Virus record (IMG/VR): IMGVR_UViG_3300027881_000536
Coordinates: 54,156 to 118,155 of that record
Reading direction: 5' to 3' (one strand)
DNA from: a virus
Length of the DNA: 64,000 nt
Of this stretch, positions 9,001-62,468 are shown one piece after another (within the stretch, counting starts at the first letter, position 1; each line of letters opens with the position of its first letter). Below the pieces are notes generated by a model. It was not told the origin of the DNA, ran no database searches, and saw nothing but the letters and a program-made list of their open reading frames with translations. The translations under genes and the position numbers were made by a program.

Positions 9001-12000
9001 ACATTAGCACTTTATAATCCACTAGGAGTGAATGAATCTACCTCGCCTGCTTGGAGTCGCAAGAGTCTACCTTACTATCCTGGTATGTTCCAACTTGCTA
9101 GTCCAGGCTATACTCTCACTGTGCCTTGGTGGTCACCAGCATATACCACTGCTAGTGGGACACTTACCAATGGCGTGTTTGCAGGAGTCAATACTGATAC
9201 CCAAGGCAATTCATATAATTGGAGAAACACTGAACAGTATCATCCTAATCACTACTATCACTTTTCTCGAACTGGTTACGGTTCCGTAGGCGCTCAGTCA
9301 GTCATGACTGGCTATCCTACCCATTATCTGAACCCGTATCTACATTCTTATGAGTCACTCAATCCTAGTTGTGTAATCAAGTATGCTGATGATGGTAATG
9401 ACCAAATATTGGTAGACAATAATAATTTATTCCCAGAAGTTTCGTTTGTTTACGATGATTGTATGTTGACTGTTATTGACCCAGATGGAGGTACATATGA
9501 AGCCAACTATGGTTATCGTGGGCAGGCTAGTGGTGAAGAAAATGCTACCACGAACAGATTCTATCAAGTGAATGGTTCAACACAATTCTGGGCCGCTTGT
9601 ATTGAAGGTAGGAGGTTGACCCTTACTGGTACTACTAGGAAGCCAGGGGAAGTCTATACTGACAAACTATCCAGTGTTGCTGCTCATCATATACAGGACC
9701 TAAGAGCAGGTACTGGTGATACTGGCACTAGTCATCTACCCGACGCCTATCTATCCATGTGGCATTACAATCTTGGTAGACCCATGACATATTACTCTGA
9801 TAATAGGGCAAGCGCAACTGCTGCTGCTGTAGATAAGAAGCCCTACAACCATCTACCTGAGCACTATGAAACTGTACACTATCATGACTTTGGTTATGTT
9901 GCTAGTGATGGTCCCTTTGACTTTAGGGGATATGGTTGGGATGATGATGGGGCTAACATTGTCACTCCTAACTCAATGGGTACTGGGTCAGGAGATTGGT
10001 TCCCTCAAGCCCGCACTGCTAATAGTTTGTACTATCACTATGGCGCATTCTGGCCTGGTGGCTCACGCTTTGGTGCACAGGCTAGTAGGATGGACCTTTG
10101 GGGAACTGCTGGGCCTGGTTGGGGTAGATTCTGGGACTCGGACCACATCATACAAGAGCAAAGTACTGCAACACAGTTCAGATATGACAGTGCTTCTGGT
10201 ATAACTGATAGTATCAGCAGTGTAAATCATAAGAGAAATGCTGCTTTCGGTTTCCGTTTCTGTGTAAGAGGTCCCTTCAATAGACCAAGGGCTGCGCTTT
10301 GGTCTGCCCAAGGGTTCGATGATACCTACGATAATGAGCACGCTGGTTACAGATTCGGACCATATGTACAGAATGATGCAGTTACTGCTGCTATCTATAC
10401 TCCAGCAACTAATGCTAATACTTCTACTGCAGGTACTGAGTCTATAGCCTCTGGTTATTCTGGTATCATTGAGAGGTTGACTAATGCTTCAGCCTTAATC
10501 GGTTCTGATTTGAAAGGGCAGCAAGTCAAGTATAGTCATGGTAGAAGAATGTGTAGACCATTCGGCTGTGCTGTTAGGAATATTGTGAATGACCCTTATG
10601 CTATACGCCACCACCAAGGAGATTATGTGGCGGGAGCAGCCTCTGCTGATACTGATATCACCAATAGGAGAAGAGACTTGGCAACAGCCCTCGCTCACTA
10701 CATGACTGATTGGTGGGGTAATACTACTGGAGAAGATGTGCGTAGGCTTCCAGTAAGAGGGTTTGGTATCAGACCGGCTTGGGACCCGGAAGATGCTTAC
10801 AGGGCTACTGATAGAACTAGAAATGCTCAAGTATTTGCTGCTCCAAGTGGACATGGTAAGGCTCGAGTCACTCTCGATTTATTTGACCCTGCTACTGCTA
10901 AGAGAGTAGGAGATAGAGGAGATGGAAGAGGAGTTAGATGGCCTACGGTATTCAATGAAGATGTACTACAAGAAGTGGACACTATCATGGATGCTACTGG
11001 CTTAGTGCTCTCATCCAATACTGCAGAGCCACCCCTAGGTAATGGCTATACTCGTGCACGCAATGATGACTTACAACTCAATGAAGTGCCAAGAGGGATT
11101 AGTAGGAGACTGGATGTACATGCTGATGATGGTTTGTTGAAACCAGAAGCCATGGCAGGTTCCAATGTAGAGAAGGCTGCTAATGATTTACTACCAGCAA
11201 GTGAAGTTCTGCAGGAACCAATATCCCGTATCGCTCCTCGGATTGGGCTTGACACTCTGACTATAGGAGAAAGTACAGGGGGCATCGCAAATACTCATGT
11301 TGCTCTTGGGACAGAAGCCCATAGCCTACATACAGATAGAGTGGCGGGTCGTAGATATACATTATCTGGGGGGATAAGAACAAACGATGCATACAGTAAA
11401 CCCTTAGCCGACTATGACCTTTCATCCCTCTCCTTTGTGCAGAAAGATGGTCCTAGTGGTAGTTCCAATGTACCTCATTTCGTACAGGTTATGCGACTCA
11501 ATTATACTCATGGTCTATGGCCTTTGGGTGGTAATCTCATTATGGATTTGAGAAACTATACAGAACCTGTGGATGATGAGAATTGGGGTACTCATTTTCA
11601 AGGGAGAAATAACTATTGGAGTGCTAATCCCTATGAAACAACCAGTCACAATGCTGATACTACACGCACTAACAACTCAGATTACTCAATCAAATTCCTA
11701 CTAAGACCTGTAAGAGTATTGGACCATCGACATCTAGAAATATTCCGAGACCGATTCACTAATGCATTGAGTGCTACTGCTGCTGGTCGCTATGGGGTCT
11801 TCACCTATGATACTCCTAATGCTAGGGCTACTACTGGTGGATTTTTCCTTAGAGGTACTAACCCTGCCCCAGATAATCCTCCTTATCCACCAGCATATCA
11901 TTTCTTGAATGACACTGTTGTCGACAACACCATTTCTACAGAAACCAAAGACTACAGATTACCTATCAGTGTTGGCCCTATTATTCCTGGGACTGAGGCC

Positions 12001-12207
12001 AGTGGTTTCACTAACAGTTTGAAACAAACAGTTGCTAGAATAACAGTGGCTGATAATACACTTCAGCATCTAAGGGCTGATGCTAGCAGGAGAGGTGACT
12101 TCACTGTCCAACCACGCTACACTCAGTCCCTCTATCCAGGTACCAACCTCAACAAGAGTGACCACAGTGGAGAGAGTTCCCATACTGACAACGAGGTGGA
12201 TGGCTGA
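1..12207 (+). CDS. Giant beta-rich virion protein, probable tail-tip/fibre component (5' end outside window)
   Basis: The frame is open from the first base, so the N-terminus lies outside the window; at least 4061 residues are present from the first GTG at 22. I recognise no named domain. The protein is rich in Gly, Thr, Ser, Asn, Tyr and Trp, poor in Lys and Cys, and has no coiled-coil stretches, so a tape-measure protein (normally helical) is unlikely. Short beta-type segments recur, for example VTSVSGTTITVTPW and VSGSVLTASGTITAP, and one stretch near residue 2850 resembles a jelly-roll or lectin-like fold. It leads the tail block, and its stop overlaps the next start by one base (TGATG). 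A tail-tip, baseplate-wedge or host-adhesion role is inferred from position and composition. Existence as a gene is certain; the function is not. Confidence 0.75.
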   Translation, partial: PLFDEASVVSDGTTINDRLFQSIGSVAHDYQLGTQYASTRALVEIPVFGNQFFDDPRNGVFPGPDNSMKIHLDPTLTAHSWAPNPVGRRAMGISPADRDVLGPYHKRWIENTTKSAVVVTKMDCASSGYKIYFDDLSKSFPAFEEAISSFRDITGVQKAGTNAGVAEVANTIMHRRIYTPEGEWAIVESNSGSEYVTVNNPLSTGTSEHFWKNFSEGGIVSNIVSGSYGEPLRGDPALESTENEFRRPYYYDRANVQTQGGNIDYGLRQYVSAVEFKEGPTANPHAKKIESGAATFEIISWSSPNAGYISDNLPSFTGSSWTDTTMEAINQDDEILLFTHHTDGDKIVVSSGTPAVGDIYTLKRLKFSQNNLGITTTNYFDIHDGYGVGEQSWKNTLNKTWNNPYAPGGLRHGDTVWMNMHYTNPHAIEGLFCKSRGVLNEFLVWNGFNGGRGELGTQARDSIPLENFLIGNTCMETAQNFVQHVNKTVELNWLELGYSASEVPVVAYLDPYLAKEGHARVLLYDVAHDREFIAFHDIHMQVQTGQATPKVNGLDIANGFYSQDKHRNNSSQTSGGAAIIEQSDFIEGAYAHKSSPYMEVTTSGQTHNAYGMNDATIFYGSSFLGSTGRTENSTVRTEDLTYGVNYTEKRHQLETATTNRSTFFDTPDGTRAIPAFLCLKGNRANTLDLTTHSESRLQHLPQWKDMDFVRRLTLDLGEIGQADGVSNTESAVREMVRRVNQAAALQGRSVGGSTHDPATFWDDTAFNGDKGSHMGYLRAHFGRAVKDLDGNDGYTIVIHSTVPGASGRNFCAWLDNSKGQAEYRPQFLVGHGGRFRSFWAMPMEGEDENMHPAPMPITKNGRPFAPITTLRQMVPPDDEDEEFINNLADYEGTNTRRNSEMATGRGANTVYQESFESQGDANRMVEGLRTGTRARARINFGGLVASGVPGWAPDAGSMGFGILNKGGRFDKIYNDDSNTTYSTYVTTDEQSKDEVGKGELYGFRFTDHRDKDHTIRLVYREKGQSFANNNTVLPPGLENEIIISFDDRDIGKGGFTVGKHMKGSTYPVTIDAGEDSVGDDITTSVTWRGNSWNGIKAPSAGYPVSTASVSGSNLSITLSNIWYTDASTATSLDYLGLLGFPEEGLFIYTDNHSSSQTTKVFRYTSRSHKSAASDANGTMSTHSFYGVTGGTLDTSNMSAEYATISPMLNWTTIVTDELIAAAVEYAMGVDPNTASEFDCSKLYGPDGRTYKEWMGDAATTAIQIHTLNDKKKVTPLGDLFSVSREIDLGLYAGNAETYLTSTQVDDGVVVDTGYLPKTLLNITSKFRGENANTVSPTFIKSNGDSLSTSDWKKHLRGEKFTAYAGDHITPCINNVIVKVTSVSGTTITVTPWQLLTPYDPAIAALDNYFSELYTLYDPNGKWATYQLVPAGNNDSGGKLELVNKHSDFSIAQNNHLSTWGPEKDPRAREFAGHRLTGNTYGEPLTYFRGAHDSPDHSVPLYFGGGFSGVVMDINDGTQNDYTEFYSHPYASGPTGCAGLQNVGENMGAHAILDTTAMLAMFPGTPFLNQHRGESQPPFTNADALLAPDMNVKSGSGSNLAGNTTQLVGYDNDSDKATRYKDDGSDVDNQTTITHPTPIVLRFAHPYARYTDAASGCADEVAYIVFGPGQSVPKNIQMYASSGVKEPTALKTVSAKFTHVYHNDLGGISLRGSGTEPGKYHPNEMSKGWKNSGTYTDRAGLFKPYLPPTMSWQRSAEYPYGVLRNWEPACGTPSEWLNTEFDSSSASLITNHWASSKATASLTIAHPMFTQTTADALYYHWHMDGGYPAGGNWMDNAIAKNPTHPTTGNRLPDNQEHSINSEDITLGLNASMFRVGALALEDYDRGLTENTTGDGTTRDVFVVDATRVQNSEELATIISAAINSYPGEGNLKAMGGTFLPSFQDAIRQDRYAWINVGMVKDSGYSNGTTLTTDERLPKYLPEKGWLRVSKTGTGVFYGRYTAHDDDASGEGTFTIGTNWRSGGARLESPTIGSGTTAGNHDAAAIDDSWTIYVWSKTGNLRWSNGAPEALHTADASTSNWDTNVFHHLAATQVHFNGFVDAIDRTRPVGAVGWHGERYSYLNSLKVAKTTTGHGISAGLGAWHPLLGFNPYGSAMGVHALNGATAAYAQAGATASFTQDSTGLNSGLHPRHYVVVSNEAELPIIAKADRDGLLLCGDMLDKRWAASSKTGGTVIASHNARHNNDRFAAYAHGGPHVDAQFAKDFAAPSSSNGEWAANIPTAGELYPMESCLFPTGDLFYDRLENPGVAHYPQEDPINHNDIGSNTLAAQSAVLAAPYSFWKGKSAARNFFTNHVVWKRMDGGNLCMPASNARGLGAVPWVWRKVGNSYVKFGETIYGNTRFSFETTNAAVFPTVQAQELAHPQLAEKYPVEIGAALSIPNEEIQFEAITVVDDSGQEHKIEGGSPLGTVIRDFSRVGGRDIQGPALSGSGNEPNLSINLPDPNTIPGNILVRSGFDKVQAYQHETMGAGGLQRPDLPDAVVSSNFDSTNENPSTNPFWENEGWERVDNSETSEVGTGFPYSKSGSMDDKAPLQTSYEPHDRALYFHLTKMGWGYTEREPLGIVSATTNGVTTNTMTHNPLTFVSVSGSVLTASGTITAPIWQAEQTPDGRSFLTVNGHVVSFTGVSGSTFTGCKFTPGFTATNGNMMKPSFYVPAGSTRHFAARRLRDHAEVSGESPDKAPIDWVGVDVDASPATAIRDDRLTPMPIPRMGHHYVTPTMAVMPGHLSHPLYQRVYNLNRAYQGATTSIEQAQGYTSVENSLIGLDNGSLLEEEGVGVNALMWFSSPSSPHPPSDIHGGAFTLMVETKVRYDGYGILAFDAENNSGDHRLKLEAGTNYSTHWNFPDPLETGAYQIIIQPNLFAQQLMGFSTNYDFGADSSTQYPLLTDQQVATVIALQWNGTTYDFVLAEALKADVRGCEVYLNEVILDIDPSPNQQFTSLPTLALYNPLGVNESTSPAWSRKSLPYYPGMFQLASPGYTLTVPWWSPAYTTASGTLTNGVFAGVNTDTQGNSYNWRNTEQYHPNHYYHFSRTGYGSVGAQSVMTGYPTHYLNPYLHSYESLNPSCVIKYADDGNDQILVDNNNLFPEVSFVYDDCMLTVIDPDGGTYEANYGYRGQASGEENATTNRFYQVNGSTQFWAACIEGRRLTLTGTTRKPGEVYTDKLSSVAAHHIQDLRAGTGDTGTSHLPDAYLSMWHYNLGRPMTYYSDNRASATAAAVDKKPYNHLPEHYETVHYHDFGYVASDGPFDFRGYGWDDDGANIVTPNSMGTGSGDWFPQARTANSLYYHYGAFWPGGSRFGAQASRMDLWGTAGPGWGRFWDSDHIIQEQSTATQFRYDSASGITDSISSVNHKRNAAFGFRFCVRGPFNRPRAALWSAQGFDDTYDNEHAGYRFGPYVQNDAVTAAIYTPATNANTSTAGTESIASGYSGIIERLTNASALIGSDLKGQQVKYSHGRRMCRPFGCAVRNIVNDPYAIRHHQGDYVAGAASADTDITNRRRDLATALAHYMTDWWGNTTGEDVRRLPVRGFGIRPAWDPEDAYRATDRTRNAQVFAAPSGHGKARVTLDLFDPATAKRVGDRGDGRGVRWPTVFNEDVLQEVDTIMDATGLVLSSNTAEPPLGNGYTRARNDDLQLNEVPRGISRRLDVHADDGLLKPEAMAGSNVEKAANDLLPASEVLQEPISRIAPRIGLDTLTIGESTGGIANTHVALGTEAHSLHTDRVAGRRYTLSGGIRTNDAYSKPLADYDLSSLSFVQKDGPSGSSNVPHFVQVMRLNYTHGLWPLGGNLIMDLRNYTEPVDDENWGTHFQGRNNYWSANPYETTSHNADTTRTNNSDYSIKFLLRPVRVLDHRHLEIFRDRFTNALSATAAGRYGVFTYDTPNARATTGGFFLRGTNPAPDNPPYPPAYHFLNDTVVDNTISTETKDYRLPISVGPIIPGTEASGFTNSLKQTVARITVADNTLQHLRADASRRGDFTVQPRYTQSLYPGTNLNKSDHSGESSHTDNEVDG

Positions 12208-26567: not shown

Positions 26568-26720
26568 TCACTCTTCTTCATCTTTGGGTAGATTCAAAGC
26601 ATAAAATGAGAGGTCATTGAGTAGTGAGAAAATCATCCCACCGACAGTAATGGCTACAGGTATCACACAGCATAGTGAGAATAGTATGTAAAGCAGGGTA
26701 GTAGCCCAATCAATGTCCAT
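26568..26720 (-). CDS. Small membrane protein downstream of the chaperonin
   Basis: A 50-residue frame whose ATG lies inside the last codons of the chaperonin gene (11-base overlap). Residues 6-38 are hydrophobic (TTLLYILFSLCCVIPVAITVGGMIFSLL), enough for one long or two short membrane segments, and the C-terminus is acidic (KDEEE). It is the final gene of the leftward series. Function unknown. Confidence 0.5.
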   Translation of the reverse strand: MDIDWATTLLYILFSLCCVIPVAITVGGMIFSLLNDLSFYALNLPKDEEE

Positions 26721-28224
26721 CTTCCTGTCCTCTCATCGCTATGATGTCGTCAATCCTAAGGACTGAAGTGCCTACTTCTGTGGCACTACTAATCACTTGC
26801 TTAACCAGGGACTCTGGCTCCACAATTCCCTTATCTAGTGTGTTGCAAATCTCACCCACACCGTCATCATCTATGTAGAGACCGATACCTGGCTCTGCTG
26901 ACCTTAGTTCCATGACCACATCTAAGGGGTCCATGCCAGCGTTGTTCGCTATGGCTGCAGGGATTATCTCTAGTGCGTCAGCGTATGCCTCCATGCACAT
27001 GCGCTCTCGAGCACTCATGTTAGCCTGCTTAGCAGCATGAGTTCTCACTGCCATAGATGCAGCAGAGAAGGCTGCTCCACCACCGGGAAAGCCTCTGTTA
27101 CCATCCTTCATACTGAGGCAGGTCACACCCACGGCGTCGTCGAACGCCCTCTCATATTCATCTAGAGTCTGGCGTGTTGCACCTCTGACTACCAAAGTGG
27201 TAGCCTCTCCTGGTCCGGAGACAGTCACGAAGTCTAGGTCACCTATCCTTTCCTCCTTCACTGCGATGTCTATCCCATCTACAGGGTCTGTGATGTCCAC
27301 TACTCTGTGATAGATTGGGACATTGAACAGTCTGGAAAGTGATTCCATGTCACTCTGTTGTAGTCTAGTGATGAGGGGGATGCCATTCTGCCCTAGGTAA
27401 TGGGCTACAGCCTCATGGACTGAGTCCCTAACAAATACACACCCGTTAGGCCCTGTGGCACCAGCAACCATGCTTGCTAGTTCACTGAGCATCTCGAGTT
27501 CCTGTTGCTTGAGAGCCTGGAGTTGACCCATGTTCTCAACCTGTATCTGGTCTACATCATATCCATCCAGTCCCCCGTTTATGAGTAGCACACTGACCTC
27601 ACCTGAGACCTCTTTGATATCTCCCACATCGTTAGCGAACTCCTTGTTCAGAACCAATCCGTCCTGCACATAGGAATCTTTGAGGGAACCACCAGCCTGA
27701 GTTATCACCTTGATTCTCTCGAGGTCACCTCCTGCTTTCTCTGCTGCTTTGAAGCAAAGCGTAGCAGCATAATCAAGTTCACTTTCGGCAGCCTTACCGC
27801 GCATGGCAGTCTTGGCTGCATCTAACACATCTATCTCGACTGGGTCTAGATTGTTGAGAGCAATGTGTTTGCCTCTGTCAAATGACCTGAGTATAACTCG
27901 GGGGTGAATACCCCTGAGTAGTAGCCCTTCACTGAGGGCTAGCATCTGACCGGCTAACACCACCACACTGGTGGTCCCATCCTTACAGACAGCCTCCTGT
28001 GTCTTACTAGCATCTATCATCATCAACGCACCAGGGTGTGCTGCATCTAATTCTCTCAGGATAGTCACACCATCGTTGGTCACGATGTTATGATTACCAT
28101 TGGTCAGCATCTTATCCATACCTGCTGGCCCAAGGGTAGACCTGACGGTCTCGGCTATATTCATAGCCGCTTTTATGTTACTCATTTGCGCTTCTCTTCC
28201 ACTTTGCTGTGTTTTCTCACTCAT
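26710..28224 (-). CDS. Group II chaperonin (thermosome subunit)
   Basis: A 504-residue protein with the group II chaperonin layout: an N-terminal equatorial segment with STLGPAGMDKML and NDGVTIL, the ATP-binding motif as KDGTTSVVVLAG (cellular enzymes read GDGTT), a substrate-binding apical part in the middle, and the returning equatorial segment with GGGAAF near residue 385. At 504 residues it is shorter than the usual 540-550; the Gly/Met-rich C-terminal tail of cellular thermosomes is absent. Such proteins form double-ring ATP-driven folding chambers in the cytoplasm. A viral copy could fold capsid or tail proteins. Chaperonin genes are known from magroviruses. It starts with an overlap to a 39-residue frame. 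Confidence 0.93.
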   Translation of the reverse strand: MSEKTQQSGREAQMSNIKAAMNIAETVRSTLGPAGMDKMLTNGNHNIVTNDGVTILRELDAAHPGALMMIDASKTQEAVCKDGTTSVVVLAGQMLALSEGLLLRGIHPRVILRSFDRGKHIALNNLDPVEIDVLDAAKTAMRGKAAESELDYAATLCFKAAEKAGGDLERIKVITQAGGSLKDSYVQDGLVLNKEFANDVGDIKEVSGEVSVLLINGGLDGYDVDQIQVENMGQLQALKQQELEMLSELASMVAGATGPNGCVFVRDSVHEAVAHYLGQNGIPLITRLQQSDMESLSRLFNVPIYHRVVDITDPVDGIDIAVKEERIGDLDFVTVSGPGEATTLVVRGATRQTLDEYERAFDDAVGVTCLSMKDGNRGFPGGGAAFSAASMAVRTHAAKQANMSARERMCMEAYADALEIIPAAIANNAGMDPLDVVMELRSAEPGIGLYIDDDGVGEICNTLDKGIVEPESLVKQVISSATEVGTSVLRIDDIIAMRGQEDGH

Positions 28225-46014: not shown

Positions 46015-46329
46015 TCAATCAATCCTCTCCTGTATCATTACTCCCATCTCACCCGTCATATCATCCGGCTCTCCAATTTGTTCCATGCAATACTCCAATA
46101 GTTTAGCGTAGTCACATGTAATATAATCGTTGGAGTCTAGGTATAGACTTGCTCCAACATGAGTCAAAGCATGGCGCAACCGCTTGACTTCTGCTAGGAG
46201 GTCAGGTGCGGCGGCTATGAGTTTCAAATCTTCATCGTAGTATGACTCTCTCACCGCGTCCAACTCAGGAAAGTGTTCAATCTTCCACGGCCCCGGTGTG
46301 TGTCCTTCGTATTTGTCTGTATCAATCAT
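46015..46329 (-). CDS. TPGPW / LIAAAPDLL-type phage protein, paralogue 1
   Basis: A 104-residue protein that begins MIDTDKYEGHTPGPWKIEHF and carries DLKLIAAAPDLLAEVKRLR. This pairing of a PGPW segment with an LIAAAPxLL helix is a widespread small phage family of unknown function. Two further genes just upstream start with the same MIDTDKYEG leader. It starts in an ATGA overlap. Confidence 0.65.
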   Translation of the reverse strand: MIDTDKYEGHTPGPWKIEHFPELDAVRESYYDEDLKLIAAAPDLLAEVKRLRHALTHVGASLYLDSNDYITCDYAKLLEYCMEQIGEPDDMTGEMGVMIQERID

Positions 46330-46565
46330 TCTTCATCACCTATCCCCAAGTATTCAAGAGCATCAGGGTCTATACCTCCCCAATTAGTATGCCACCAATT
46401 AACCGCCCATCTTACAGTTTCAACATCACATTTATGACTATGTATCGCTTGTTTAACTGCGCTCAATTCTTCGGGTCTGTTAAACGCCATGTAAATCATA
46501 AGCGATGGTAGGTCTATCTCTCGCTCGTCTATTATTTCTCCTTCGTATTTGTCTGTGTCAATCAT
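46326..46565 (-). CDS. MIDTDKYEG-leader protein, paralogue 2 with different body
   Basis: I start at ATG 46565 (ATGA overlap), giving 79 residues. It shares the MIDTDKYEG leader with its neighbours, but the body is different: helical and Trp-rich (VRWAVNWWHTNWGG), ending GIGDEE. The shared leader and upstream DNA suggest that the 5' end was copied as a unit. Confidence 0.55.
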   Translation of the reverse strand: MIDTDKYEGEIIDEREIDLPSLMIYMAFNRPEELSAVKQAIHSHKCDVETVRWAVNWWHTNWGGIDPDALEYLGIGDEE

Positions 46566-46879
46566 TCTTTCATCTCCTGCATTACTGTCCATATCAGTTC
46601 GACTCTTACAATTTCCTCAATTTCTTCCATGTCCATAATCTTCTTGACTCGTAAATAGAAAGCGAGCAGTTCAGGTGCGTCTGCTATGAGTTTAGTATCA
46701 GGCATATCATCAGTCAATTCACCGACCCTCAATGGCCCAAGTATTCGCTCACCATCTGTCCATCCAAAATCACTTTCATCTTCATCACTCACTACACATG
46801 ACCCTTCCACATGAGGGAGATTGAACATCGCCTTCCACGGTGCAGGTGTGTGTCCTTCGTATTTGTCTGTGTCAATCAT
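46562..46879 (-). CDS. TPAPW / LIADAPELL-type phage protein, paralogue 3
   Basis: A 105-residue protein starting MIDTDKYEGHTPAPWKAMF and containing DTKLIADAPELLAFYLRV. It belongs to the same small phage family as the gene at 46015-46329 and is clearly a paralogue of it. The body between the two motifs has diverged. It is coupled to its neighbours by ATGA overlaps on both sides. Confidence 0.6.
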   Translation of the reverse strand: MIDTDKYEGHTPAPWKAMFNLPHVEGSCVVSDEDESDFGWTDGERILGPLRVGELTDDMPDTKLIADAPELLAFYLRVKKIMDMEEIEEIVRVELIWTVMQEMKE

Positions 46880-51103: not shown

Positions 51104-52711
51104 TCATAGTGCACTTATGCCGTGCACCTCTGTATATGCTGGGGTATCTCCCAGCCATTCTTCCATTAGATTTTCATTCAGTATATGGGCCATAACAGGC
51201 CTTCTGTCCTCTATATTGTATTCGATATCGGAATAATCTGCGTGGAACAAGGTGTTGTTCAGCAGGTCTGTGAACACATCATTGACTCTCTTGAGTCTCC
51301 CATCTAAGGTGTCCATACCCAATGCTGTCCCATCGAGTTTCCTCTTGTCATCAAACACAGTAGGCTTGTGAGTTATGGCTCCTGTGAAGCATTGTAGCGC
51401 ATGATACGCTGTATTCTTCTCATCGGCTGCTCTCACATAGTACAGGCTAGGGTCTTTCCAACCCTGTGATAGAGCCAAATCCATATGACTCCTGTTGATG
51501 TTCTTGACCTCTTGAGTCTCTTTGTTTTTGATGACTCTAGGTGGTGATAGACCTATGTTGTTCTCACTCATCACATACATCAGTTTGTCCATCAGTTGGA
51601 TGTCCATCGGAACCCAAGAGAGCAGTTCGGTATTGACCAACCACTCATTGAGTTCTGCTGTGGCATTCACTAGGTCTAAGCCTAACACATCCCAATCAAT
51701 ATCAGCCATGACTCCCTTGGTATGTCTGAGGTTCAAGGCTGTCTTGATGCCTCCAGCAACTGCAAGGTTGCTGCAATAGGTTCTCAAGGCTCCACCATGA
51801 ACGCTGAAGGAACCTCTCCCATCTAGGCTGTTGTTAATCGTAAACCCAAACTTGTAGAGTCCATCCAGGTTCTGGGCAGCCTCACTAAATGCGTCTGTGC
51901 TTAGGAAATTGTGTCCCCTCTCCTTCAATTGGGCTGCTGCTGCTTTCCTAGTCTGTGCCGCTTGGGTCACATCTAAGTCCACTCTACAACGAGCACCATC
52001 ATTCCATGCTGTGACTGACGAGTTGATGTTGGACATCTCTGCGTATCTCAGCATCGGCTCCACCCATTGAGGGTGCGGAAGCACATGGTATCTATCGCTG
52101 ACTGAGCCCAGTAGGGCTCCAGCAGGTCGTGTCTCTGATTTCATCGCTGGGTTGAATATACTCCAAGTGGCTGCGCTGCCATTGGGCTTGTTCACCCTTA
52201 CGAACTCCTCTCCACTAAACACAAAGTTAGGTAGGAACTCTGGTGTGAAGTTCCAAGGAGCCGTCTTCCTGGCTCTCCCTCCCTTCAACAGGGCTCCATC
52301 CCATACATCTGCGGAAGAATCTACTTCTTCGGCTTCCCATACCTTAGCAAACTCCACTCCTTTCGTTAGTTCTGTTGTTGGGGTGTCGTTGATGCGTGCT
52401 ATGAGGTTCTTCTCTGCTGCACCTTGTTCTACCATGTCTATCAGGTCTATGTGCAATTCGCTACTTGGCTGCACTGGCTGTCTCTCTCCTTTGAAGACCA
52501 TCTCGGGTCTGAATACTCCTCCAGGTGTCTCAAATTGGGACACCTTACAGAGCCATTCTCCCTCTTTAATCTTGAAAGTGGTCAAGGCATCGAATGGGAC
52601 TAGGGTGATTGTATCGTCTCCCCCTATAGCCGAGTAGTGTAGCGATACTACTGTCCCAGATTCGCTCTTCTTGACCTTATCTGCTATCATTATTATTTTC
52701 TGTTTTGTCAT
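51104..52711 (-). CDS. DUF932 family protein
   Basis: A 535-residue protein of the phage/plasmid DUF932 family. The characteristic parts are SDRYHVLPHPQWVEPMLRY (about residue 205), a strand-rich core with TAWNDGARCRVDLDV, FTINNSLDGRGSFSVHGG and RTYCSNLAVAG, and a C-terminal helical part. Family members are widespread in phages and plasmids and are biochemically poorly understood. It begins after a GGAG site inside the end of the preceding gene and is followed by the largest internal gap, so it may be strongly expressed. Confidence 0.75.
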   Translation of the reverse strand: MTKQKIIMIADKVKKSESGTVVSLHYSAIGGDDTITLVPFDALTTFKIKEGEWLCKVSQFETPGGVFRPEMVFKGERQPVQPSSELHIDLIDMVEQGAAEKNLIARINDTPTTELTKGVEFAKVWEAEEVDSSADVWDGALLKGGRARKTAPWNFTPEFLPNFVFSGEEFVRVNKPNGSAATWSIFNPAMKSETRPAGALLGSVSDRYHVLPHPQWVEPMLRYAEMSNINSSVTAWNDGARCRVDLDVTQAAQTRKAAAAQLKERGHNFLSTDAFSEAAQNLDGLYKFGFTINNSLDGRGSFSVHGGALRTYCSNLAVAGGIKTALNLRHTKGVMADIDWDVLGLDLVNATAELNEWLVNTELLSWVPMDIQLMDKLMYVMSENNIGLSPPRVIKNKETQEVKNINRSHMDLALSQGWKDPSLYYVRAADEKNTAYHALQCFTGAITHKPTVFDDKRKLDGTALGMDTLDGRLKRVNDVFTDLLNNTLFHADYSDIEYNIEDRRPVMAHILNENLMEEWLGDTPAYTEVHGISAL

Positions 52712-55735: not shown

Positions 55736-56025
55736 TTCTCCTCCTTCAGTAGTCGGTGTAGTGCAGGTGTAGGTGAACGCATACAGGTGTCTTTGAGCGT
55801 GTATCTCTTCTCAATTTCCAAAATTATCTTCAGCATAATCTTCTTATCGTTAGCATCATCTGTATCTTCCATCTTTTTCGCAAACATGTGCAGACAAGCC
55901 ATGACACTTGTAGTTGGGAAGTCGTTGCATACCTTGTCCAGCGGTGGTAATTTTGGGTCACCTTTCGCAGCAGACCACATGATGTTAGCAATCGTATTGG
56001 GTGTCAGAGGTGGTTTATTACTCAT
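55732..56025 (-). CDS. Unknown helical protein
   Basis: I start at ATG 56025, after GAGG, overlapping the previous stop by eight bases, giving 97 residues. It is helical, with TPNTIANIMWSAAKGDPK, SVMACLHMFAKKMED and KKIMLKIILEIEKRY. No motif is recognised. A small protein-binding role is conceivable. Confidence 0.5.
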   Translation of the reverse strand: MSNKPPLTPNTIANIMWSAAKGDPKLPPLDKVCNDFPTTSVMACLHMFAKKMEDTDDANDKKIMLKIILEIEKRYTLKDTCMRSPTPALHRLLKEEK

Positions 56026-56641
56026 CCTCTGACACCTCAATAAAGTTCATGCATAGCCAAGCAAGAAGCCACTCTTGCCTCACACAAGGGTAGTTCTCGT
56101 TCGGATGCTTGACGATAGCATCCAAATGACTGAATGCCACGAACAGAGATTCGCCGTCTGCCATTGTGAACTCAAGCATCTTGACATCTTCATCTCTGTT
56201 GTTCTTACCATCAGTAACTCCAACAAACTCCATTATCATGTAGTCTGAGGCTTCGCTAGCAAAACTAACCACATTGTGACTAGACTCCTGAAGCCTTCTC
56301 CCTAATTCCATCATCTCGTGTTGGTCTATGGAACCATTGGCAGTTGGGATGTTGAAAGCCATACCATACTGCCTTAGTGCTCTATCCGAGCCTGTCTGGC
56401 AGAATGGTGTGCCAATTTCTTCTTTCATCAATTGATGAACTTCTGCAGGGTCGGGGTGTCCAAACTGTAGGTGTAGACTCCCGCCGTTCTGCAGGTATGA
56501 CGATTTAATCCTGAACTCTGGTGCAGTCAGGTTTGGTGCTCCCTTCTCACCTTCGATGTTATCATCGAAGATTTCAGTAACATCGTTTTCGGGAACGACC
56601 TTCGTCGGTTTTGTCAAGTATTTTTTAATGTTTTCATTCAT
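56018..56641 (-). CDS. Unknown protein
   Basis: I start at ATG 56641, nine bases after AGGAG, giving 207 residues. The middle has strands such as GGSLHLQFGHPDPAEVHQLM and later YMIMEFVGVTDG and KMLEFTMADGESLFVAF. The C-terminal part is helical and Trp-rich (QEWLLAWLCMNFIEV). It resembles no family I can name. The regular strands suggest an enzyme or binding protein of alpha/beta type. Confidence 0.5.
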   Translation of the reverse strand: MNENIKKYLTKPTKVVPENDVTEIFDDNIEGEKGAPNLTAPEFRIKSSYLQNGGSLHLQFGHPDPAEVHQLMKEEIGTPFCQTGSDRALRQYGMAFNIPTANGSIDQHEMMELGRRLQESSHNVVSFASEASDYMIMEFVGVTDGKNNRDEDVKMLEFTMADGESLFVAFSHLDAIVKHPNENYPCVRQEWLLAWLCMNFIEVSEDE

Positions 56642-56861
56642 TTTCTTCATTCTCCTGTTTCTTGGAGTCGTTGTATGCATTGTTGATGCAGAATATCGCC
56701 TTTTGGTTGAGATAATCGGCTCTCCTATCGTAGCCTTTTCTCTGCTCATCAGTTAGATTAGGATTATTGCTCTCCCCAATAGCGTGTATCATCTCACTCA
56801 TTATGTATGCGATTTCCCTCACCCAGTAATTATCGTGGTTAGCGCTTATCTCAGACGACAT
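56634..56861 (-). CDS. Small helical protein
   Basis: I start at ATG 56861, after GGGGAGG and overlapping the phosphatase-like stop by eleven bases, giving 75 residues. It is helical (YWVREIAYIMSEMIHAIGES, KGYDRRADYLNQKAIFCINNAY) and ends KKQENEENE. Function unknown. Confidence 0.45.
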   Translation of the reverse strand: MSSEISANHDNYWVREIAYIMSEMIHAIGESNNPNLTDEQRKGYDRRADYLNQKAIFCINNAYNDSKKQENEENE

Positions 56862-58356
56862 TGTAGTCATCCTCCCCTGTGGTAGTTTCGTTAGTTGGAC
56901 CATTACCCTCTTCCTTCGCCTCACCTTGTTTAGGTGGGTTTGGGTCATCGGGCCAGTTCTTTCTATTGGTAAGCCTGAACCAATGCTGTGGACTCACACC
57001 ATCTAAGATTAATCCATCTTCCTTCACCAATTGATTAGTGAAGAAGAACGATGCATCCTTACTCTTATTGATACACTCAGGGCAAGCCTTGAGTGTGGTA
57101 GCATTCTTGACATCCAGAGCCATAGTTAGTATATGAGGGCTCAATTTCTTGAAACAGTAGTCGCACTTCACATGATGGACAAAGCCTCGGTCCCCTTTGG
57201 TGTAGTTAGGAGCATCTGACCTATCCTTCATGGTGATATCACACAGTACACAAGAATCTACCACGATGACATTTTCAAGTATCTTGTCCTCTCCATCTAA
57301 CACCGTAGTCCATACATTTACAAGGTTCCTAAGCAGGTTACCTTTGCAGGTGTTACTTGAGTTCAATCTCGTCTGACTCTCTAACAAGTCTGCCCAATTG
57401 TCACCATGTAGTGTTGTCATTAACTCTTCACTGAGATGATTTATTGACATCACTTGAAGGTCGCTAACCGGTTGTAAACACTTCAAACACATGCAGTAGT
57501 CGGTAGAATTGGTAGTGGTATCTCTCTTGACCACGAAGGGGCTCACATCCACTAATTTACCTTGACACTTGATGTCGAAACACCATTCGTCTTTCAGTAT
57601 GTCTTCATCAGTGTTCTCCCAAGATACGAAGTCACATAGTGTGCACTCCACCAACTTGATGTTGTAGTTGGTCTTAGCAGGTGGGTTCTTCTGCCAACCA
57701 CTTGTGCTACCACCGTAAACACTGTGGCCTTGGGTGTATCCCTTGTGGAATCCAAGTGGGGGTCCAACTTCTATTTCACACATATCTGCTACATACTTCT
57801 GTTGTGCTGTCGCTTCTACTGCCTTTTGGCAGTAATTATCTCTGACTTCGGTGATGAGTTCGTTGGAATCTTTCCAAGTCTTCTTCTCTTCATCACTAGC
57901 CAATAGATATCTTAGGATAGACAGTTGCACACCAGTTCTACCGTGTCCGCCCATACACATACAGTGGATGGACTTAATCTCGTTAGTCCTGATGTTCTCT
58001 GCCAGTTCTTCCCAGAACTCTTTGCCTAAATCTTGCGGGACTTTGTAATCAGGGAAGTCTATCGCAAGTATCTCCTTAGGTTCTACTTGCTCTATCTTGC
58101 TCATGCAAGACCATTTCTCCGCGTCCAGACCTCTTGTTGAGTACTTACTAGGCATACCCTTCATTACTTCGTTGTCTGGCCCCATAGCCAAGTCTGGTGT
58201 CTCATCCATGAGCCACCATCCTCCTGCTCTACTACTACCACCTGCATAGACCTTTATTCCGTCATGCGTGGTGAAGGCGAGTGGGTTACCTGTATGGCAT
58301 TCAACCCATCCACCTTTCTTTGTTGTTTTTCCTTGCTGATATTTTGTATCAATCAT
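56851..58356 (-). CDS. Tyrosine/dual-specificity phosphatase-like protein with C-terminal zinc ribbons
   Basis: I start at ATG 58356, which overlaps the preceding stop (ATGA), giving 501 residues beginning MIDTKYQQG. The phosphatase signature is IHCMCMGGHGRTG, a CX5R loop with Cys134 and Arg140; the AIDFPDYKVP segment about 30 residues before it can supply the general-acid Asp. The next 350 residues contain many CxxC pairs (CTLC, CMCLKC, CVLC, CDYC, CPEC), enough for three or more zinc sites. It should remove phosphate from protein or another substrate in the host cell. Its gene directly follows the PEP-synthase-like gene, so the two may act on the same target in opposite directions. Confidence 0.7.
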   Translation of the reverse strand: MIDTKYQQGKTTKKGGWVECHTGNPLAFTTHDGIKVYAGGSSRAGGWWLMDETPDLAMGPDNEVMKGMPSKYSTRGLDAEKWSCMSKIEQVEPKEILAIDFPDYKVPQDLGKEFWEELAENIRTNEIKSIHCMCMGGHGRTGVQLSILRYLLASDEEKKTWKDSNELITEVRDNYCQKAVEATAQQKYVADMCEIEVGPPLGFHKGYTQGHSVYGGSTSGWQKNPPAKTNYNIKLVECTLCDFVSWENTDEDILKDEWCFDIKCQGKLVDVSPFVVKRDTTTNSTDYCMCLKCLQPVSDLQVMSINHLSEELMTTLHGDNWADLLESQTRLNSSNTCKGNLLRNLVNVWTTVLDGEDKILENVIVVDSCVLCDITMKDRSDAPNYTKGDRGFVHHVKCDYCFKKLSPHILTMALDVKNATTLKACPECINKSKDASFFFTNQLVKEDGLILDGVSPQHWFRLTNRKNWPDDPNPPKQGEAKEEGNGPTNETTTGEDDYNVV

Positions 58357-61300
58357 TCTATTTTCTCCCATTGTGTTACACTGAGAACATCGTCTGTTTC
58401 AGTGTGGAGTTCTTTTAACAGTGTATTGGTATCTCTATGACCAATAAGATTTGAACCGGACATTCTCTGCAGTACCTCCTTGAAGAAACCAGAGTCACCG
58501 GTTTTTGCCCATTTCTCCTTGCCTTTAGAATAAAGGCGCCTAGTATTGAACATATGAGAGTGCATAAACATATTACTATCCTCTTCCCAGATGGCAGCAG
58601 CCTTGTCTAACTCATCTGCTTTAGCGTAGATTTTGGGATAATACTTATCACAATTGTTCCATGCATCAATAGCAGTCGATGTATTGAAATCCTGTGAAAC
58701 CAAAGAGATACTGATTTGCCATCTCGCCAACATTTTATCTATCCACAAGTGCATATTTCCTGTATCATCATCATGATGAAATAACAGACTACCACCGGTA
58801 TATTTCGACACTTTCATTTCACCATGCTTTACCAAACGCTCCTTCTCCTCGAATATTGTCTGCTCAGGTGCTCTTGTGCTCATACCAGTAATCTCTGATT
58901 CTATTTGTGCTACGGTTGGGATATGCTCTGGGTCAACTTGGATTGTCCAATTACTCATGTATGTCGACAAAGCCATTGATACCATTGCCGCTTCCTCGCT
59001 TGTTAATCCCATTTCTTTTGTAGCAAAGTAATTTTGACAATCCTGTCGCTCACATTGGTCTAATCCGCAGATACCTTCAACATGCATAGTGTAACCATTA
59101 TTAAGTGGTATACCAAACAAATCCCTATCTTCATCAGAAACATCTAAATTGTCCCATGATTCTGTTAGTGGTTGATTAGAATCACTTGGTTTAGACATAC
59201 CATAGATTTCTTCTGCTGAGAAGGTCTTGAAATCACAATCTCGGTTACTTTCCTTAACTCGATTGGCTGCATTCTGTAGGTGCTGGATAAGTTTGTCATG
59301 ACCCTTTGCAACTCTTTCAGGCTCATTGACATAGTTAGTGTAGAACATGGCGTAGAATGGTGCTGTGACCAACCAGTGCTCAGAGGCTGACTGGAAGTTA
59401 TTGTGACCGAGTGTACCTATGTCAAATGCATCCTTATCTCCGAGGAATTTGTTGAAGAAGAAGCCTGTGTTGTGCACAGCATTCTCCAACTTGTTCACTT
59501 GACTTAGTATTCTCGATAAAGGTACATTCTTACCATTCATTAACTTCTTGACTAATTCTGTGACCTTTACCGTAGGATTGACTGAACTGAAGTATTTGTC
59601 ACCACCGTATGAATTACTATGCCATTGATTGTGCTCCTCACTGTATGACTCAGCGTAGAACTTAGCGATTTCATGCAAGTCATCATAGCCTATTTCATTG
59701 TAGTTGAGTCTTCGGTAGTATTCACTCCTTTGGAATAGGTTCCCGACACCACTCTCCCCAGAGATAGCCTTCTGGTACATTATGTGTGAGAATGCCCTAT
59801 GTGGAGTCATATTACATCTACCTCCTAATCCGTGCCTTAGTTCAGCCATACCGACTGCTAATGCTGCTTTAGTTATCCATGTAGTGAACACACCACCAAG
59901 GTATGCTTCTAGTCTTGGGTCATTCTTGGGACCACTGATGAAACTGTGGAAGAATTGTGATAATGGTGCTAGATTGTATGTCCAGAACCTATCTCCATCT
60001 CTCAACCCTATCTTGTAGAAGTCAAGGAATGGTTCAGGGTCGTATGGCTCAGGCTCTGCCTCCGGCATATCTGTGACCCAACCCCCTATCTCCGTCCACA
60101 CAGTGTGGTTCTTCTTTGGTTTGATACCATAGATAACAGGGAAGCCGAAGTCTATCGACACACCTCCAACATGAGCGTTCTGTGTACCTCCAGGGGCGTA
60201 GACTACCAAGCCTTCAGGTAATTCTCCATCTTTAGCCATCTGTTCAAGTTCCAAACACTCTTCAAGCGAGCCTTTACCCACATCCATGACTACTAATTGT
60301 TCAACTGAACCTGCTGGGACATTCCCAGCGATGTGTAGAACAATGCCGTTCACCTTTGGTGGCGGTCTAATGTCCATCTTTTCAGTGTGTAATCCTCTCA
60401 TTTGAGTGATTCCGGGCTTTATTCTAGCATTTTTGCCAGTATGCCTATCATCAGCAGTTTTCTTGAACCAAGTCAATGTACTACTTGATTTTGGGTTCTC
60501 ATATACGAACTCTATTTCGTGGTTATCCATACCATCTTCGAGATTGATGAGTCTGATGTCTTGTGCAAGGTATCTCTGTGCTCTAGCATTAAGGCTGAAC
60601 ACTATATTGCTACCACCACCTGCTGTAACTCCATCATGGTGAGGACCAACTATGAATGAAGAGGAAGTTTTACCAACCACACCTGAGCACATAGGTTTCT
60701 TGAATCTCTGGACTATCAAAGAACCATTAGGGTCGTAGTCAGAGTGACTCGGGTTGAGCATGCACTGACTCAGCATCCTAACACCTTCAATGAATTCCTC
60801 CTCATTCTTAGCGAGCACATTAGGTAGTGCTCCCGGACGAGGTGTTGCAGGGCAGGTTCTGATGAAGAAGCCACTCTTAGTCCATATCTTTCTCGATGGA
60901 CTACCTGTTCCCCATGTCCTGTATAGGCTAAGCAACAAATCTCTTGCTGAACTTACAGCAGCAGTATCTAATGAAAGGTGTAATGCTCTTGCAGAGTAGA
61001 ACAGGTGGTATTCCTGATTCAATGCTATCGCTCTAACACCTTTGGCCTTCTGTGACTCTGGGTCGAAGTTACCATCATTGGAATCGTAAACCAAGAAACC
61101 CTTCATGAAGATACTAGACATTATGTCTCCTTTAGACATCTCCAAATACTTTTTGAGTGTTTCTTTCATATCTTCAGATGACTTGTCAGAGGTCGACAGG
61201 TTAGACTGTCGTTGCAGGGCACCTTCTCGATGTGGTTGTCCCATATCTATAGTTTTAATCAAAGCATCATCAATAGCATTACCCACTACTTGTGCTATGA

Positions 61301-62468
61301 CTTCTGTCAAGCGTCCAATAATATCTCGCCTCTCTTCAGTAGAGAGTGCGTCGTTATAGCAATCATCAATTAATGGCATTGCGGTTTGACTCACGATGAC
61401 TTGCATGAAATCGCTAAGTGTAGAGGCCTTACCACACAAAGAGTAAATGTGCTCTTTGAATAGTTTCTTCGCTTCGTGCTTGAGAAGATTATCTATTAGC
61501 GTTTCAATAAAGTTGAATAATTGCTCATTAGAACATCTTAAGGAGTTTACGAAGGTATTCTCCATTTTCTCTCTGGACATAGTCGTGGATGTCAGTGCCC
61601 AACTGTCATCAAACCTGTATAAGGCTTCAAGTATCTTTGTGGCTCTCTTGTTAGAGTTAACGGGATAGACCGTTTGTTTCTTCTTTTCTTTATTTTCTTT
61701 ATTCATAATATCTACCATCTTTTGAAGGTTAGAAATTGCGGTTTGTTTGTTAGGGCCCCAATCGTCATCAGACAAGTAGCCATCATCGGGGATGTTTTTG
61801 CCACCTGTCCATTTTGTTTGTTTCTCCTGACCTGACGGGGTGAACTCTGGCATCTTCTCAAGGTAAGAGTTAACGATGTATACTGGTCTCCCTGAGGGAA
61901 GATGGTATATCATCTCTCCTTCCAAGTAACATGTTAGAACACTCTTGGTACATGGTGTGACTTCATGAGTTGGAGGGCTATCGGGATTCTTCTGTACCCA
62001 CTCATCATCGAATTCAAGAGGGTCAAAGAGTGACAAGTTGCTAATGGCGCTTGGCTTGAACACAGTTGATAGTAAGATAAGTGCTTGATTAGCAATGTGG
62101 TACTTTGCCCAATTAGATGCATTTAGTGAGTCATATTCACCCATATTATGGAAGGCACTCGCTTCAAGGTCAAATTCAGTGCCGACAATCTCAGGGAACA
62201 ACTCACCGAAGTCAGATAGACCGTGGTGCACCTTATGATAAGGGCATATTTTACAGTCATGGTCAGTACAATGGTCCCAATCAGGGTCCTCGAATTCTTC
62301 TCCGCTAGGTCCGTCATCATACCACTTGTTAACGAATTTTGTCATATCCCTATGTAGTACACCTATCAATGGAATAGTTTCAATGGAACACCACTTGCTA
62401 ATGACGCTTGGCTTGAACACAGTGGATTGCGTAGTGTCTGCTATTGTGTTATGAGTATGGTTATCCAT
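58353..62468 (-). CDS. Giant protein with PEP synthase/PPDK-like ATP-binding and phosphohistidine domains
   Basis: I start at ATG 62468 (TGATG overlap, GAGGAG upstream), giving 1371 residues; GTG at 62477 is possible. Residues about 1-150 hold a cysteine/histidine cluster (DHCTDHDCKICPYHKVHH). At about 530-620, KSGFFIRTCPATPRPGALPNV, then a helix FIEGVRML and SLIVQRFKKPMCSGVV, follow the order of the ATP-grasp domain of PEP synthase and pyruvate phosphate dikinase. At about 752-782, LVVYAPGGTQNAHVGGV then SIDFGFPVIYG matches the swivelling domain in which the His (about 766) is phosphorylated. The PEP-binding barrel motifs of the cellular enzymes are not visible in the remaining 590 residues, so the acceptor may differ. 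The alignment is by eye. Confidence 0.6.
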   Translation of the reverse strand: MDNHTHNTIADTTQSTVFKPSVISKWCSIETIPLIGVLHRDMTKFVNKWYDDGPSGEEFEDPDWDHCTDHDCKICPYHKVHHGLSDFGELFPEIVGTEFDLEASAFHNMGEYDSLNASNWAKYHIANQALILLSTVFKPSAISNLSLFDPLEFDDEWVQKNPDSPPTHEVTPCTKSVLTCYLEGEMIYHLPSGRPVYIVNSYLEKMPEFTPSGQEKQTKWTGGKNIPDDGYLSDDDWGPNKQTAISNLQKMVDIMNKENKEKKKQTVYPVNSNKRATKILEALYRFDDSWALTSTTMSREKMENTFVNSLRCSNEQLFNFIETLIDNLLKHEAKKLFKEHIYSLCGKASTLSDFMQVIVSQTAMPLIDDCYNDALSTEERRDIIGRLTEVIAQVVGNAIDDALIKTIDMGQPHREGALQRQSNLSTSDKSSEDMKETLKKYLEMSKGDIMSSIFMKGFLVYDSNDGNFDPESQKAKGVRAIALNQEYHLFYSARALHLSLDTAAVSSARDLLLSLYRTWGTGSPSRKIWTKSGFFIRTCPATPRPGALPNVLAKNEEEFIEGVRMLSQCMLNPSHSDYDPNGSLIVQRFKKPMCSGVVGKTSSSFIVGPHHDGVTAGGGSNIVFSLNARAQRYLAQDIRLINLEDGMDNHEIEFVYENPKSSSTLTWFKKTADDRHTGKNARIKPGITQMRGLHTEKMDIRPPPKVNGIVLHIAGNVPAGSVEQLVVMDVGKGSLEECLELEQMAKDGELPEGLVVYAPGGTQNAHVGGVSIDFGFPVIYGIKPKKNHTVWTEIGGWVTDMPEAEPEPYDPEPFLDFYKIGLRDGDRFWTYNLAPLSQFFHSFISGPKNDPRLEAYLGGVFTTWITKAALAVGMAELRHGLGGRCNMTPHRAFSHIMYQKAISGESGVGNLFQRSEYYRRLNYNEIGYDDLHEIAKFYAESYSEEHNQWHSNSYGGDKYFSSVNPTVKVTELVKKLMNGKNVPLSRILSQVNKLENAVHNTGFFFNKFLGDKDAFDIGTLGHNNFQSASEHWLVTAPFYAMFYTNYVNEPERVAKGHDKLIQHLQNAANRVKESNRDCDFKTFSAEEIYGMSKPSDSNQPLTESWDNLDVSDEDRDLFGIPLNNGYTMHVEGICGLDQCERQDCQNYFATKEMGLTSEEAAMVSMALSTYMSNWTIQVDPEHIPTVAQIESEITGMSTRAPEQTIFEEKERLVKHGEMKVSKYTGGSLLFHHDDDTGNMHLWIDKMLARWQISISLVSQDFNTSTAIDAWNNCDKYYPKIYAKADELDKAAAIWEEDSNMFMHSHMFNTRRLYSKGKEKWAKTGDSGFFKEVLQRMSGSNLIGHRDTNTLLKELHTETDDVLSVTQWEKIE
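62038..62427 (-). repeat. In-frame pair of 33-base direct repeats in the giant gene
   Basis: Positions 62038-62070 and 62395-62427 are identical at 31 of 33 bases and lie 357 bases (119 codons) apart. Both encode STVFKPSVIS or STVFKPSAIS. They are in the N-terminal part of the PEP-synthase-like protein. Confidence 0.75.

Follow-up and report, generated by a model that had tools for sequence, protein, structure and literature searches.

The stretch of DNA analysed here, which we call the window, is 64,000 nucleotides long and corresponds to positions 54156-118155 of the 118,155-bp virus record IMGVR_UViG_3300027881_000536. It carries genes for a thermosome, a family-B DNA polymerase, an ERCC4 nuclease, an archaeo-eukaryotic primase-like protein, a clamp-loader-type ATPase and an SNF2 helicase, and because this gene content resembles that of magroviruses we provisionally place the virus near these viruses of marine archaea. 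Our subject is a pair of minus-strand genes, P0001 (58353..62468, 1371 aa) and P0002 (56851..58356). The open reading frame, modelled fold and conservation of P0001 point to a phosphotransferase of the pyruvate phosphate dikinase (PPDK) type that lacks the phosphoenolpyruvate (PEP)/pyruvate barrel and is fused to a helical domain, RH; P0002 is predicted to be a phosphatase. An earlier reading of this DNA (the original prediction) had proposed that the two proteins add and remove phosphate on a shared target. Both reading frames are intact, and they join, as it had stated, in an ATGA overlap (GAAAATAGAATGATTGAT, 58353..58356) formed by the P0001 stop and the P0002 start. Because the ATGA places this start inside the P0001 stop codon, translation of P0002 probably begins at the sixth residue of its longest open reading frame.

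P0001 begins with an N-terminal extension (residues 1-455, 61104..62468), which shrinks to between a few and ~70 residues ahead of the SQK motif in the more distant of them. A PPDK_N-type ATP-grasp domain follows (residues 466-700, 60369..61073), with the motifs SQK (K474), RTCPxxPRxG (R537), ExE (E651, E653) and QxRG (Q689, R691), and then a swivelling phosphohistidine domain (residues 708-805, 60054..60347), assigned by alignment, model and fold match, with a predicted catalytic His766 (codon 60171..60173). The segments earlier picked out by eye as ATP-grasp-like and phosphohistidine-like are present: IRTCPATPRPG from residue 536, VQRFKKPMCSGVV, and APGGTQNAHVGG, which contains H766. We compared 26 distinct P0001-type proteins, including that of the window, to which the other members are 24-43% identical. 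All 26 keep the Lys of SQK, the Arg residues of RxCPxx(P/A)RxG, the second Glu of ExE, the QxR pair and His766, and the first Glu (E651) is kept in 25 and replaced by Gln in one. Judged by this invariance of H766 and the ATP-site residues, the motifs are not chance matches. By motif order, PPDK residues K22, R92, D321, E323, Q335, R337 and H455, numbered from the alignment of Bacillus phage G gp139 to solved PPDK, correspond to K474, R537, E651, E653, Q689, R691 and H766 of P0001, and the PPDK spacing R-x7-PG is retained as well.

An AlphaFold2 model of residues 455-1045, built from the 26-sequence alignment, has a pLDDT of 78 and a pTM of 0.78. When this model was compared with the PDB by Foldseek, all 11 matches at E ≤ 1e-3 were PPDK or rifampin phosphotransferase (best E 2.6e-6), and the PDB matches included the isolated ATP domain 5hv6 (2.7e-4). 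The best viral fold match was gp139 of Bacillus phage G, a barrel-less PPDK (E 1.8e-9). Identity to PPDK in the fold alignment is ~10%, and single-sequence scans gave no family-level hit to Pfam or NCBIfam; single-sequence searches of Pfam, PHROGs, NCBIfam, PDB, phages and viral_contigs returned nothing useful. Sub-threshold hits to PEP-utilizers (PF00391) were seen in 4 of 10 homologues (E 0.011-0.23), each on the His motif; this was the sole or top sub-threshold hit in three and a weaker second in the fourth. With HHalign, the swivelling domain reached E 0.008 and a score of 26.8, against a shuffle maximum of 21.2. Because sequence profiles alone miss significance, the family assignment rests on the fold, the motif order and the phage gene cassette described below, and on this footing we regard P0001 as a phosphotransferase of PPDK/rifampin phosphotransferase build. 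Matches to the PPDK_N and PEP-utilizers families thus do exist, in the form of fold matches and weak PF00391 hits.

The original prediction had seen no PEP-binding barrel, and the segment after the swivelling domain (residues 812-1045, 59334..60035) is indeed all-helical in the AlphaFold2 model, so that no PEP/pyruvate barrel is present in P0001. What had been overlooked is that this helical segment, the RH domain, constitutes a distinct family and that bacterial phages encode homologues of it. It carries ExRH (876-879), W949 followed by YGG (954-956), HN (999-1000) and K1007. In profile-profile comparison (HHalign) with phrog_20946, a ~340-aa separate protein of bacterial tailed phages with no assigned function, RH scored a probability of 93 and an E of 3e-7 with four magrovirus-type sequences, and a probability of 97.4, an E of 9e-12 and a score of 89 with a deep set, whereas 30 column shuffles scored at most 19 and unrelated families below 17. 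By these comparisons the RH domain of P0001 is homologous to phrog_20946. The polar residues E, R, GG, H, N and K are common to the phage RH proteins (82-83 of 83; K in 82/82) and to the P0001-type domain (26/26); the phage motifs RExRH, GG..W and HN.G.FNK are only partly retained in the latter. Past RH, the alignment shows a C-terminal tail (residues 1046-1371, 58356..59333) that is poorly conserved and contains a cluster of Cys residues.

P0002 matches phrog_17568 (E 2.8e-13) and has the CX5R P-loop CMGGHGR (Cys139-Arg145, 57937..57957) noted earlier, together with Asp108 in DFPDY (DWPDF in relatives; 58048..58050), a predicted general acid of the WPD type. Homologue alignment shows the P-loop as CxGGHGRTG in 30/30 sequences and the acid loop as D[FW]PD[FY] or EWPDF, likewise in 30/30. 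By this complete catalytic set, P0002 is a phosphatase of the PTP/dual-specificity superfamily, with predicted activity. Its Cys-rich tail (57067..57654) has 16 Cys past the P-loop (5-23 in relatives) and keeps Cys pairs; the tail that had been called a zinc ribbon is therefore Cys-rich as described and compatible with zinc ribbons, metal binding being presumed from the Cys pattern. A single-sequence AlphaFold model of P0002 (pLDDT 31) was too poor to be of use. The phrog_17568 family is labelled 'thymidylate synthase', apparently a misannotation of a PTP-type phosphatase family. The same label stands in PHROG and RefSeq/GenBank on cassette phosphatases with CxGGxGRTG at L070:7553-8341 and L074:5851-6327, where it has apparently been propagated.

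As lone queries, neither P0001 nor P0002 gave a match in viral_contigs. Relatives were instead reached via the DNA polymerase, which led to three related records with both genes; the phosphatase alignment was then used for a scan that yielded 31 loci, some on contigs already found. Wherever a locus has enough upstream sequence, the phosphatase is preceded by a P0001 homologue; at L165, L174 and L181 the phosphatase is at the contig end. The pair is thus kept in related viruses. Dikinase and phosphatase are adjacent except in the three closest relatives, where a ~205-aa gene separates them. That intervening gene is homologous to a 243-aa gene of the window (56018..56749, minus strand). We found no relative of either protein in genome_contigs.

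In phages, the genes that match P0002 most closely are found in the vicinity of others annotated as pyruvate phosphate dikinase or kinase. To describe this arrangement we used 80 phage loci from viral_contigs, retrieved with RH as the sole query. The gene order PPDK, PTP1, RH, PTP2, G4 was found in 80/80, with PPDK detected in 74 and G4 in 73, the remainder being cut by contig ends, and with one of the two PTPs undetected in a few loci. The families concerned are phrog_18609, phrog_17568, phrog_20946 and phrog_25950, and the cassette adjoins DNA polymerase I and portal/terminase genes. Among isolate phages the genus tallies of RH and of phage-type PPDK are equal (33 Vibrio, 4 Stenotrophomonas, 2 Rhizobium, 1 Rhodobacter). 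Further PPDK matches come from phage G and from unannotated records labelled Listeria, Enterococcus or faecal sample, many of which are short and may stem from cells. Some phage PTP copies lack the exact CxGGxGR[TS]G, and most of these keep CX5R. The 243-aa gene of the window was considered as a counterpart of G4, which is plausible by eye but unsupported by hhalign (not significant). RH was not found in plasmids; it occurs in four genome_contigs that look phage-like. Three of these have the full cassette, and in the fourth (L200, 4.2 kb) G4 was not hit. The contigs with these cassettes (L198-L201) are labelled Azospirillum, Helicobacteraceae, Gammaproteobacteria and Proteobacteria and are probably prophages or phage contigs.

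The explanation that we favour takes as its ground the fold, the catalytic residues, the missing barrel, the RH homology and the invariant gene association. The ATP-grasp domain of P0001 would phosphorylate His766 with ATP, and the swivelling domain would carry the phosphate to a second site, which is the barrel in PPDK and would be RH here. Because RH stands where PPDK has its barrel, the acceptor would be an RH-bound molecule rather than pyruvate, and the phosphate would probably go to a hydroxyl group, as in known non-PEP members. P0002 would then act on the phosphorylated product, reversing the mark or catalysing a later step of the same pathway. We propose that RH takes part in the dikinase's reaction because it lies C-terminal to the swivelling domain, where PPDK has the barrel, and because in phages its gene accompanies that of the dikinase; that it is fused to the dikinase in one group and encoded near it in the other points to a shared reaction, and RH is the likeliest, if putative, acceptor-handling part. 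An ATP/His core should be able to work without a barrel because that of VadK does (PMC13400623), and other acceptors are possible because rifampin phosphotransferase, HpeHI and PpsAB use them (PMC4844700, PMC12167813). As a whole, this scheme, in which phosphate passes from ATP through His766 to an RH-bound acceptor and the phosphatase then works on what is formed, is probably correct. We regard as evenly balanced the more specific proposal that tailed viruses of bacterial and archaeal type share a mainly viral phosphate-transfer system that has nothing to do with PEP metabolism. Its RH would hold a new kind of acceptor, such as a protein hydroxyl or a DNA base or nucleotide undergoing activation for hypermodification, and its PTPs would complete or reverse the transfer.

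Several points weigh against this explanation or limit the evidence for it. RH has no known fold or function, and its acceptor role is putative. By HMMER and HHalign alone the P0001 core falls below significance against PPDK (best E 0.008), and against phage PPDK it is non-significant by HHalign even with deep alignments. TM-scores are low (0.2-0.34), with an rmsd of ~25 Å over the whole chain; such values would be expected if the domain orientation differs. The placement of the catalytic residues comes from the alignment and the fold match rather than from model coordinates. The cassette phages are interrelated, so that their conserved gene order is partly due to descent, and a stronger argument than order within the phages is that the components recur in magrovirus-type viruses, whose backbone differs. 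Finally, gene association could reflect successive steps of a pathway just as well as a reversible switch on a shared target. The original prediction is therefore partly supported: its family assignments and the pairing stand, and one shared target is not something that co-occurrence shows.

Two of the alternatives are narrower versions of our favoured explanation, and our confidence in them overlaps with it. In the first, the dikinase would phosphorylate a protein of the host or the virus, a change that the PTP would undo. The PTP type of the phosphatases fits such a switch, and P0002 could use its Cys-rich tail to bind a target; however, we found no demonstrated transfer to a protein substrate by the PPDK family in the open-access literature, and the two phosphatases, RH and G4 of the phages exceed the needs of a simple switch. 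We consider this version possible but unlikely. The second, to our mind the most interesting special case, is hypermodification of DNA or nucleotides, in which the dikinase would (pyro)phosphorylate a hydroxyl on a base or nucleotide to create a leaving group, RH would exchange this for another group and the phosphatase would clear leftovers. PPDK chemistry proceeds via a pyrophosphorylated His, which suits this scheme, as does the position of the phage cassette beside DNA polymerase I and portal/terminase genes. Furthermore, the DNA of phage DLP3, whose genome listing includes cassette genes, resists 15 restriction enzymes (PMC7326821). However, DLP3 carries many other genes able to explain this resistance, and no second phage suited to testing the pattern was found in the open-access literature. 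A PF00303 thymidylate synthase is present in 2/30 cassette viruses and ThyX scores over the cut-off in 6/30; because thymidylate-synthase-type genes are so rare, the dUMP-hydroxymethylase route to thymidine hypermodification is ruled out as a general one. The hypermodification version is doubtful, more so than the protein switch.

The remaining alternatives depart from our favoured explanation. The phage dikinase has been treated as an auxiliary metabolic gene (PMC12038007, PMC10141217, PMC10671443), in the first two of these papers with an explicit tie to PEP/glycolysis, and on the proposal made for Vibrio phages J26 and LV6 it would make or use PEP and pyruvate as PPDK does. The nucleotide and central domains are indeed where the phage PPDKs come nearest to PPDK, and an AlphaFold/Dali match to 1GGO with PEP docking has been reported (PMC12038007). 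In contrast, the phage PPDKs align to solved PPDK from residue ~4 to ~475 (to 532 in one), their last ~200 residues are poorly conserved (majority fraction 0.19-0.32 versus 0.48-0.76), P0001 has the all-helical RH instead of the barrel, and RH and the PTPs, obligatory partners of the dikinase, are not known to contribute to PEP synthesis, all of which makes this account very improbable. Phosphorylation of a polysaccharide, in a viral counterpart of the plant system of glucan water dikinase and the SEX4/laforin phosphatases, is suggested by the fact that glucan water dikinase and SEX4 are a known pair of dikinase and CX5R-type phosphatase on one substrate (PMC5215930); the plant starch system, however, uses carbohydrate-binding modules, and Pfam, PHROG and NCBIfam scans found none in P0001 or P0002, so we rate this analogy lower still. 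Least probable is a catalytically dead dikinase core kept as a scaffold, for which the ~10% identity to PPDK could speak but against which the ATP-site residues and His are conserved across 26 divergent homologues. We also considered an anti-phage defence system, but none of ten proteins from both cassettes matched a PADLOC model and the idea was dropped.

The gene set is probably under strong selection, because its order is invariant and its catalytic residues conserved in phages of several proteobacterial hosts, and because it recurs, fused, in marine archaeal-type viruses. Judged against the open-access literature, the pair looks like an unrecognised viral phosphate-transfer system, whose core enzyme has been published as an auxiliary gene of PEP metabolism, a role that its domain make-up does not support. 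If our explanation is true, it would add a new acceptor class to the dikinase family, give RH (phrog_20946) a likely role and correct a recurrent annotation error, including the 'thymidylate synthase' label of the PTP family phrog_17568.

Elsewhere in the window, an open frame of ~4061 aa enters from the edge (22-12207), a group II chaperonin (thermosome) gene lies at 26710-28224 (Pfam Cpn60_TCP1, E 7e-105), and a 535-aa DUF932 protein is encoded at 51104-52711, a few genes downstream of the dikinase-phosphatase pair. A family of short proteins that often start with MIDTDKYEGHT is represented at 46015-46329 and 46562-46879, and at L160:14443-15692; it is multicopy in related viruses, close to the pair. 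A conserved MNIFVLH...DKHVPKM protein is found near the pair in nine related loci (for example L157:274-846 and L068:295-849).

Among known systems, PPDK (PF01326, PF00391 and the PEP/pyruvate barrel; 1GGO, 1DIK) has the ATP-grasp and His swivel fold in common with P0001, which keeps the equivalents of its active-site residues given above, with Glu in place of D321. P0001 differs in having the helical RH for the barrel, in its ~10% identity and in being paired with a phosphatase. Rifampin phosphotransferase (5HV1, 5FBS), which matches the P0001 model with E values of 2e-5 to 3e-4, has its domains in the order ATP-grasp, rifampin-binding, His. In P0001, by contrast, the swivelling domain directly follows the ATP-grasp domain, with no rifampin-binding domain between, and the helical domain comes last; a relation of RH to the rifampin-binding domain is not demonstrated. 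To our knowledge, no dedicated phosphatase accompanies rifampin phosphotransferase or the phenol dikinases. These enzymes (HpeHI, CreHI and PpsAB among the latter) all have ATP-grasp and swivelling domains of the PPDK type and use an acceptor other than pyruvate (PMC4844700, PMC12167813). VadK (Rv1127c) is a truncated PPDK with ATP and His domains and no barrel that autophosphorylates on His (PMC13400623); unlike P0001 it is cellular, ~50 kDa and without RH, and that paper does not mention a phosphatase. In Bacillus phage G, gp139 (L197:7881-8978) is a 365-aa stand-alone ATP-grasp and swivel PPDK without a barrel, much nearer to cellular PPDK in sequence than P0001, and no RH or PTP homologue was detected among its neighbours gp138, 140-142, 144 and 145. 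The closest parallel in gene content is the cassette of Vibrio, Stenotrophomonas, Rhizobium and Rhodobacter phages, which has the same three components as the window pair in neighbouring genes, with RH and PTPs homologous by profile to those of the window family. The phages have a separate RH and two PTPs, whereas the window family has a fused dikinase-RH and one PTP with a Cys-rich tail.

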